5,687 nt of DNA. Origin: an uncultured Hungatella sp. (GTDB lineage Bacteria; Bacillota; Clostridia; Lachnospirales; Lachnospiraceae). The first letter of the stretch is position 1. The number at the start of each line of letters is the position of its first letter. The stretch is taken from NCBI GenBank assembly GCA_959018155.1, contig CAUEKH010000190.1, positions 1 to 5,687 of the forward strand, in the 5' to 3' direction. Shown here in pieces: positions 2,242 to 3,430 of this stretch. Made by a program: the position numbers and the translations under genes. The notes below the pieces were generated by a model. That model ran no database searches, had not been told where the DNA came from, and worked only from the letters and a program-made list of their open reading frames with translations.

Positions 2242-2964
2242 ATGAAGAAAAAGATTGCAGCAGAAATGACGAGAAAAGAATTTGAGGAGGCAGTGAAAGA
2301 GGCGGTGGCGGTCATTGTTCCGGTTGGTTCCTGTGAACAGCATGGATATCATTTGCCACTGAACACGGACAATGAGATCGCAGAAGCGCTGGGCCGGTCT
2401 GCAGCCGGAAAAAAAGATGTGATTTTAATGCCTGCCGTAAATTACGGACAGGTATGGTCAGCGCGCAAAATTCCAGGGACAATTGCACTGTCTGCCAATA
2501 CATTAAAATGTATCCTTAAAGATATTGCGGTCAGCTTGAATTTCCACGGAGCAAGACACGTTATTTTTCTATCCGGACATAATGGTAATTTACCCGTGAT
2601 GAAAGAAATGGCACGAGAACTGGAAGAAGAGAAGGGATTCCGGAATATCTGGTATTTTGGTCCATCAGTAAGAAAAGAGGTAATGGATTTACTGGAAACG
2701 AAGATTCCCGGAAACTGTGTCCACGCGGGAGAACTGGAAACTTCGCTGATGCTTGCCATCCATCCGGAACTGGTACAGATGGATTATGCAACCGAGGAGT
2801 ACCCAAAGATGCCGGCAGAAGGCAGATACCGGCCAGTCTCCTGGGACCAGTTTGCAGAGTCGGGAGCTTTTGGAAATGCAAAAGCGGCATCGGCGGAAAA
2901 GGGGGAGAAAATTCTGGAATATATGATAGAAGAACTGGCAGATTTAATTGATATGCTGCCATAA
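2242..2964 (+). CDS. Creatininase-family metal-dependent amidohydrolase
   Basis: This 240-residue cytoplasmic hydrolase belongs to the creatininase (creatinine amidohydrolase) family, metal enzymes that open cyclic amides or cleave related C-N bonds. The signature residues are in order. PVGSCEQHGYHLPLNTD (27-43) supplies the probable metal ligands Glu32, His34 and Asp43. SGHNGN (111-116) carries His113. HAGELETS (161-168) carries the conserved acidic residues of the C-terminal half. The SGHxGN and HAGExETS form belongs to the broad family, which includes MftE and archaeal FAPy deformylase, rather than to true creatininase, where a glutamate follows two residues after the histidine. The length is normal. 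AAGGAAGG (2221-2228) is 13 nt from the ATG and a nearer GGGCGGG is 8 nt away, so the ribosome site is unusual but no better start exists. It is divergent from the PTS operon and may act on the imported compound; the substrate is unknown. Confidence 0.88.
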   Translation: MKKKIAAEMTRKEFEEAVKEAVAVIVPVGSCEQHGYHLPLNTDNEIAEALGRSAAGKKDVILMPAVNYGQVWSARKIPGTIALSANTLKCILKDIAVSLNFHGARHVIFLSGHNGNLPVMKEMARELEEEKGFRNIWYFGPSVRKEVMDLLETKIPGNCVHAGELETSLMLAIHPELVQMDYATEEYPKMPAEGRYRPVSWDQFAESGAFGNAKAASAEKGEKILEYMIEELADLIDMLP

Positions 2965-2969
2965 TCTGC

Positions 2970-2999
2970 TTGACAAGCATCCAAATTCTGTCGTATACT
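2970..2999 (+). promoter_or_regulatory. Near-consensus promoter of the ABC-F leader transcript
   Basis: TTGACA (2970-2975) and TATACT (2994-2999) are separated by 18 bp, so transcription should begin near 3006. The -35 box is the middle of a perfect 13-bp palindrome, TGCTTGACAAGCA (2967-2979), which begins 2 bp after the preceding stop codon. The promoter is far from the next good coding start (3421), so a leader of about 415 nt is implied. No terminator separates it from the creatininase-family gene. Confidence 0.85.
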
Positions 3000-3006
3000 T
3001 CGCTTA

Positions 3007-3047
3007 GTGGCCTGGTCAGGTGGTTTAAACACACCTTCCCAGACCAC
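3007..3047 (+). other. 5'-terminal hairpin of the leader RNA
   Basis: Arm 3007-3015 (GTGGCCTGG) pairs with 3039-3047 (CCAGACCAC) with one mismatch. In the same register AGGTG (3018-3022) pairs with CACCT (3032-3036), around the loop GTTTAAACA. The hairpin begins right at the predicted transcription start, where it could stabilise the RNA. Its left strand (3011-3017, CCTGGTC) can alternatively pair with GGCCAGG at 3324-3330 near the terminator. Confidence 0.6.
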
Positions 3048-3280
3048 AAACTAAAACAATCATGAATAAAATTATCAGGAAAAGAAAGAAGGTTCTGTCG
3101 GAAGATGATGACGAAATAATGACGAAAACAAGGCAGTGTAACAGAGTGTTGGAAGGTGTGGTCCGGCTGTCAGCGCGGTTTGGAGCACCATTCATTGTTG
3201 TCGGTGACTTTCGTGGAAAGCGTGAAGGTTATCGTGTATGCCTATGCGTTCGGTCATTATGGAAATTCTTTCGTACAGAC

Positions 3281-3320
3281 TCGTGTTTGTGCAGGTTGTT
3301 TTCTGCGCTTATGGACACGA
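3281..3320 (+). other. Leader hairpin upstream of the terminator
   Basis: TCGTGT (3281-3286) pairs with ACACGA (3315-3320). Inside it GTGCAG (3289-3294) pairs with CTGCGC (3303-3308, one G-U) around an 8-nt U-rich loop. The left strand belongs to a segment (CAGACTCGTGT, 3276-3286) repeated with one change at 3367-3377, so alternative pairing is conceivable. Confidence 0.5.
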
Positions 3321-3340
3321 AAAGGCCAGGTCGGGAAACC

Positions 3341-3430
3341 ATGGAGACATGGGGACGTGACGCCGGCAGACTCCTGTACAGAATGATATTCCTCCCGGAC
3401 GCATGGCCGGGAGGTTTTTTATGTTATTGA
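3341..3430 (+). CDS. Possible leader-peptide ORF running through the terminator into the ABC-F start
   Basis: An ATG at 3341 opens a 29-codon frame beginning METWGRDAGRLLYRM. It reads through both arms of the terminator and stops at TGA 3428-3430, 10 nt into the ABC-F gene in another frame. The frame stays open upstream to 3062, so a longer peptide is possible. There is no strong Shine-Dalgarno; only GGTCGGGA lies about 5-12 nt upstream. The attraction is geometric: a ribosome stalled in the second half of this frame would physically keep the terminator hairpin open and expose the ABC-F ribosome site. No known leader-peptide sequence is recognised, and expression is unproven. Confidence 0.3.
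   Translation: METWGRDAGRLLYRMIFLPDAWPGGFLCY
3391..3420 (+). terminator. Intrinsic attenuator terminator overlapping the ABC-F ribosome binding site
   Basis: CCTCCCGG (3391-3398) pairs perfectly with CCGGGAGG (3407-3414) around an 8-nt loop and is followed by six T (3415-3420). The ABC-F ATG is the very next base, 3421. The 3' arm contains GGGAGG (3409-3414), which is 6 nt from that ATG and is the only good ribosome site for the gene. The hairpin therefore both stops RNA polymerase and hides the ribosome site on any read-through RNA. A terminator at this position can only be regulatory. Confidence 0.92.

Follow-up and report, generated by a model that had tools for sequence, protein, structure and literature searches.

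Introduction

What does a terminator-like hairpin do when it ends exactly at the start codon of an ABC-F gene and holds within its stem the predicted ribosome binding site of that gene? The question is raised by a stretch of 5,687 nucleotides of an uncultured Hungatella sp. (contig CAUEKH010000190.1; hereafter the window), for which an earlier note had suggested a single structure blocking transcription and also the translation of any read-through RNA. Here, we propose that the hairpin is quite probably a drug-responsive attenuator, in which both steps would remain blocked until a ribosome stalled on a short upstream open reading frame (uORF) allows an antiterminator to form.

Related switches have been described. 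In the C. difficile gene cplR, according to the available extracts of the published study (PMC10201436), the terminator stem hides the Shine-Dalgarno (SD) sequence and the RNA ends at the start codon in the absence of drug, induction requires the start codon of a uORF, and breaking the stem makes expression constitutive. A broken U-tract leaves cplR still repressed and still inducible, from which it follows that this gene is controlled at both levels (PMC10201436). In B. subtilis vmlR, a uORF of three codons (MIN), an anti-antiterminator, an antiterminator and a terminator precede the ABC-F gene, with partial sequestration of the SD as a second layer (extracts of PMC9226507), and the streptococcal ABC-F gene msrD is induced via drug-bound ribosomes by transcription attenuation (extracts of PMC10314930). 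Lachnospiraceae are not mentioned among the literature matches listed in our limited search.

The locus and its ABC-F protein

The features of the locus are collected in Table 1. Beyond these, the window carries PTS genes on the opposite strand and an aspartate-dehydrogenase-like gene on the plus strand that is truncated by the window end. An inverted repeat with a T-run at 252-303, between convergent genes, looks like an ordinary terminator; the same interval is the sole Rfam match with E up to 1 over the window, to a miRNA model and below its gathering score.

Table 1. Features of the ABC-F locus, numbered from the first letter of the window
Feature	Position	Strand	Basis
Creatininase-like gene	2242-2964	+	Pfam
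Promoter-like TTGACA-18-TATACT, 11/12 matches, RNA start predicted near 3006	2970-2999	+	sequence
Hairpin at predicted 5' end of leader	3007-3047	+	MFE fold of 3006-3420
SD-like AGAAGG of uORF	3087-3092	+	sequence
Predicted uORF ATG ATG ACG AAA TAA, four codons, MMTK (or MTK from the second ATG)	3105-3119	+	sequence, relatives
Box 1, ATAATGAC, overlapping the uORF stop; predicted anti-antiterminator strand	3116-3123	+	complementarity, MFE
Box 2, ATGCGTTCGGTCATTAT, pairing alternatively with box 1 or box 3	3244-3260	+	complementarity, covariation
Box 3, CCGGACGCAT, inner 5' arm of terminator plus loop	3395-3404	+	complementarity, covariation
Terminator hairpin 3:4, predicted to hide the SD	3391-3414	+	sequence, folding, relatives
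Predicted SD of the ABC-F gene, GGGAGG, within the terminator 3' arm	3409-3414	+	sequence
T6, terminator U-tract and spacer from SD to start codon	3415-3420	+	sequence
ABC-F gene, 471 aa	3421-4836	+	NF000355, Pfam ABC_tran, tree, linker alignment

We place the start codon of the ABC-F gene at ATG 3421. The terminator loop also contains an in-frame ATG (3403), which would open a 477-aa ORF; it is unlikely as the start, as relatives begin right after the U-tract. A 122-aa ORF (3062-3430) that overlaps the ABC-F start was rejected as a gene, having no Pfam or NCBIfam match and, judged by eye, no SD before its ATG.

The protein is a ribosomal protection-like ABC-F (NF000355, 466.8 bits, above the cut-off of 380) that scores below the cut-offs for Vga (NF000170, 498.2 vs 725 bits), CplR (NF043038, 439 vs 780 bits) and Msr (412.4 vs 680 bits). 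The tree separates it from the CplR and Vga references and puts it in a 20-row set supported at 100/96. Its interdomain linker is, in the alignment, about as long as theirs, and it lacks the C-terminal extension seen in CplR, Vga and the protein of locus L046. The clade of the window's ABC-F (L034-L055; about 471-487 aa) is without this extension; the sister pair L045 and L046 measure 541 and 546 aa, and L046, which was aligned, has it. Judged from these comparisons, the missing extension is a loss within the family, and the window protein is likely to confer resistance.

A terminator hairpin around the predicted Shine-Dalgarno sequence

The terminator stem consists of eight pairs between CCTCCCGG (3391-3398) and CCGGGAGG (3407-3414), closed by a loop of 8 nt (3399-3406). 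The earlier note had the hairpin and T6 reaching exactly to the ABC-F start codon, and these positions are confirmed; its reading of GGGAGG in the 3' arm as the SD agrees with an SD-like sequence that stands six T before the ATG. The segment 3386-3420 folds at -17.1 kcal/mol (z -3.68), a stability equalled in 1 of 200 dinucleotide shuffles. An equally stable terminator arises in 1/400 shuffles of all 90 nt, and in 38/400 when the last 20 nt (SD and T-tract) are held fixed and the preceding 70 nt are shuffled. Taken singly, the hairpin of the window is only moderately unlikely by chance and proves little.

Conservation of the layout among ABC-F leaders

ABC-F leaders were gathered by a protein scan, which gave 33 loci, and by genome searches within one family (8/397, E 1e-130), one genus (10/17, 1e-130), one class (49/391, 1e-95) and one order (8/392, 1e-110). 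From 92 records, 69 distinct leaders were drawn, the window included; near copies occur within them (e.g. L051/L052, L056/L057, L064/L074) and they are thus not 69 independent cases. Lachnospiraceae, Enterocloster, Hespellia or similar account for most of the nine nearest loci, with proteins 57-65% identical to that of the window. Among the proteins listed, identity reaches up to 88%, the DNA of those lying outside the leader survey.

A leader was scored as having the layout if it contained a hairpin of -7 kcal/mol or better, with four or more SD bases paired in the 3' arm, and a U-tract after it. This was found in 60/69 distinct ABC-F leaders and in none of the 157 other SD-bearing ORFs of the same loci. 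A count under an identity limit, which excludes L021 and L024 (both without the layout), gives 60/67. Among shuffled leaders the layout arose in 3/335 full shuffles and in 87/335 shuffles that kept the SD and the U-tract, which means that the composition of this end contributes, yet it does not explain 60 of 69. Because the layout is conserved across ABC-F leaders, chance is excluded for the hairpin of the window, and we consider it real and very likely functional.

Nine leaders are without the layout (L021, L024, L039, L042, L061, L063, L077, L081 and L082), L081 having unread bases in the region concerned. In the last 130 nt before the start of L042 and L082, a terminator-like hairpin and a second hairpin follow one another, with the SD downstream of both and apart from them; the locks seem to be split here, in the manner of vmlR. 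L039, which has the same gene as L006, has kept an SD-covering hairpin and lost the U-tract, and may be a natural translation-only lock. Outside this set, the layout is absent from the leaders of the plasmid genes Vga(A) (L092) and Vga(C) (L094) and present in that of Listeria Vga(G) (L093), and two loci above the CplR cut-off (L095, L096) have an inverted repeat around the SD and a T-tract, as judged by eye alone.

In 200 Lachnospiraceae-family genomes, the pattern AGGAGGGATTTTTNTG was found 42 times, spread over 37 genomes, and its reversed control 3 times. An ABC-F gene was present in just two of the 30 pattern loci that were read, and SD plus T-tract alone is therefore not specific. At three loci (L118, L132 and L137, start codon 1514 in the last), a hairpin predicted at -18.3 to -24.6 kcal/mol stands before a SpoIIE-family gene and extends into AGGAGGGA-T5 ahead of the start, an ABC-F-like layout at a sporulation gene.

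Upstream elements and their covariation in the close clade

The leaders of the close clade present a fixed order of elements: a promoter-like site, a uORF, box 1 close to the stop codon of the uORF, box 2, and the terminator with box 3 as its 5' side. All 21 close leaders have the promoter-like site (9-12 matches) 34-105 nt upstream of the uORF, the weakest being those of L004, L043 and L044, for which 4-6 of 50 shuffles score as well. All 21 also have, beside box 1, a predicted uORF of 3-6 codons with an SD-like run. At the position of the uORF SD, relatives carry AAAGGTGG, AAAGGCGG, GGAGGT or GAGGT, and their predicted peptides include MNI, MIIK, MIIL, MKIR, MRIK, MYNK, MRM and MIIIIR, among others. 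The macrolide response of msrD reportedly depends on its leader peptide, unlike what we propose for the window.

In the window, box 1 can form eight pairs with GTCATTAT (3253-3260), a helix present in the MFE fold of the leader, and ATGCGTTCGG (3244-3253) can form ten pairs with box 3, being its best complement, with 0/200 shuffles as good. Just 3' of box 2 lies a second, weaker terminator-like hairpin (3273-3292), which the MFE fold includes in a longer stem and which could serve as a pause hairpin.

In 18 of 21 leaders of the close clade, the terminator 5' region finds its best complement in box 2 at a shuffle P <= 0.05. The exceptions (L036, L004 and L044; P 0.29, 0.44 and 0.115) have an 8-pair 2:3 helix that is left unformed in folding. 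With these three dropped beforehand, all 18 remaining leaders pair columns 1-9 of helix 2:3, with changes on both sides in columns 2, 4, 7 and 8, and in 13 of the 18 no swapped pair scores better than the leader's own 2:3 pair. When the 14 distinct pairs were permuted, the observed sum was reached in 0/10000; box 2 having been picked by complementarity, this permutation test is favoured, and the shuffle test applies the same choice to its shuffles. The terminator stem likewise varies on both sides (20 hairpins, 19 distinct), with a mean of -16.1 kcal/mol for own arms and -13.1 kcal/mol when 5' arms are swapped. A complement of the terminator 5' region at P <= 0.05 is found in 17 of 41 other, mostly distant leaders, one of these (L009) belonging to the close clade.

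Could the hairpin simply be an ordinary terminator for transcription of the creatininase-like gene, or from elsewhere upstream, with ABC-F made at a constant low level by read-through? Intrinsic terminators are common, and the creatininase-like gene does lie upstream on the same strand. Against this, a promoter-like site stands between that gene and the hairpin, a covarying competitor strand exists, and the hairpin, which in 60/69 leaders ends at the start codon and contains the SD, accompanies the ABC-F gene while the upstream genes differ. Of five other loci scanned for neighbours, four had a Pfam match, and the creatininase-like gene of the window is replaced there by an aminotransferase, an HTH protein, YjbR or a metal-sensitive repressor. 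Since neighbours differ between loci, a terminator of the upstream gene was rejected, and we regard this whole explanation as scarcely credible.

Folding under a ribosome mask

In the predicted leader of the window (3006-3420), the terminator forms with a probability of 0.93 when the RNA is free and of 0.07 when a ribosome mask is placed on the uORF. When the mask was moved over 23 positions, the fold flipped only for those starting at 3090-3120. For RNAs of 21 leaders that end before the 3' arm, mean 2:3 pairing rises from 1.0 to 8.8 pairs under the mask (2.8 under control masks), with a gain of more than 2 pairs in 15 of 21. In the equilibrium fold of the full-length RNA, masking lowers the terminator to less than 0.5 in no more than 7 of the 20 close leaders.

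This sensitivity to the uORF bears on the possibility that the same terminator is governed by a small molecule or a protein rather than by a stalled ribosome. The leader is long (about 415 nt as predicted) and more structured than its shuffles (z -4.06; 0/100 as good), as such a sensor might lead one to expect. However, the leader 3006-3420 matched no Rfam family, on which ground a known riboswitch was rejected, the short uORF stands beside box 1 in every close leader, and the fold is flipped only from the uORF stretch, leaving a sensor of another kind very unlikely.

Two results of the folding tell against a straightforward version of the model. When the RNA of the window is cut at 3404, helix 2:3 is already favoured in the unmasked state, with 9.4 pairs (ensemble -135.9 vs -133.4 kcal/mol for 1:2), and therefore the off state requires that 1:2 form first and then hold. 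When the RNA is extended by 60 nt into the gene, the masked leader keeps its terminator at 0.90, leaving the SD just 6% unpaired. Taken together, these results mean that the model needs kinetics: 1:2 would have to form early and hold, and 2:3, once made, would have to persist.

The closed SD also makes the translation lock the weaker half of the model in the window, and fits a reading in which only transcription is attenuated, the SD overlap being a by-product of placing a purine-rich SD beside a U-tract, with translation not separately controlled. That the layout arises in about a quarter of the shuffles that keep SD and U-tract (87/335) also agrees with such a by-product. The frequency of the layout in the real leaders argues against it, however, as does L039, which keeps its SD-covering hairpin despite the loss of the U-tract. 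In addition, a cplR reporter with a broken U-tract remains repressed without drug, as reported in the extracts of PMC10201436. On balance, we consider attenuation of transcription alone unlikely, and favour control at both levels.

Discussion

We envisage the two-level switch of the window as follows. The RNA is likely to start near 3006. If the uORF MMTK is freely translated, folding predicts that 1:2 pairs, that box 3 is left free, that terminator 3:4 forms, and that the RNA would end near 3420. A ribosome stalled by drug at the uORF, a step that we infer, would cover box 1, so that 2:3 could pair (as folding in part predicts) and consume the 5' arm of the terminator, letting the polymerase continue; the same refolding would release the SD. 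By analogy with CplR, the inducer is likely to be a pleuromutilin, a lincosamide or a streptogramin A. The elements themselves, their complementarity and their conservation are observed in the window and its relatives.

How does this compare with the known systems? Like cplR (extracts of PMC10201436), the window combines an ABC-F gene, a short uORF (MRI in cplR), a terminator stem that hides the SD, and a U-tract. Three features of the cplR type are found in the window: a predicted short uORF with an SD early in the leader; an intrinsic terminator at the start codon that hides the SD; and an antiterminator that competes with the terminator together with an anti-antiterminator that overlaps the uORF, the last indicated by complementarity, covariation and folding, with the exceptions given above. 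The two differ in leader length (212 nt in cplR vs about 415 nt predicted in the window), in the uORF (MRI vs MMTK), and in the protein, which in the window scores below the CplR cut-off and is without the C-terminal extension. Moreover, the formation of the antiterminator on ribosome stalling and the RNA end at the start codon rest on experiment in cplR and on prediction in the window (PMC10201436, extracts).

In vmlR, by contrast, the terminator (SL-3) and the SD-hiding hairpin (SL-4) are separate (extracts of PMC9226507), whereas the window has one hairpin for both, and no SD-hiding hairpin apart from the terminator was found there. The Listeria Vga(G)/Lmo0919-type leader (L093) resembles the window in that its SD lies within a hairpin's 3' arm and a U-tract is present, although its protein is distant from that of the window (36.7% identity, on a long branch of the tree). 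Lmo0919 is included in the anti-SD alignment figure of the cplR study (PMC10201436, extracts).

In light of these comparisons, the idea put forward in the earlier note is correct in substance, and the kind of system was already known. Its prediction of an SD-hiding terminator acting as a two-level attenuator of ABC-F is supported by the conservation of the layout, the covarying antiterminator, the recurring promoter-like site and uORF, and the folding under a mask. Its limits for the attenuator (3391-3420) hold for the terminator and the SD but miss the likely sensor parts, the uORF and boxes 1 and 2, which lie outside them. The arrangement, which the note called tighter than a simple upstream attenuator, is not exceptional for this family: the layout is typical of the sampled leaders (60/69), and a 2023 study had demonstrated it for C. 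difficile cplR (extracts of PMC10201436). What the present analysis adds is a further clade, the covariation of the antiterminator, the survey of leaders, and the natural variants with split or single locks.

Our findings also bear on how this kind of control has evolved. We lean slightly towards the view that the switch with the SD inside the terminator is an ancestral module of the whole Vga/CplR-like ABC-F lineage, across Clostridia and Bacilli, from which the split forms (L042, L082) and the form that lost its U-tract (L039) would be derived. If it is ancestral, box 2 and the SD would compete for the 5' arm of the terminator, and compensatory change would have preserved this competition as promoters, neighbouring genes, uORF peptides and even the C-terminal extension of the protein turned over around it.

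The mechanism established by experiment in a single C. difficile gene would be widened to an ABC-F group of Lachnospiraceae and, by our survey, to most of the sampled Vga/CplR-like leaders. Such genes would be near-silent in the absence of drug and could escape expression surveys, and the leaders with split or single locks would offer natural comparisons for the contribution of each lock.
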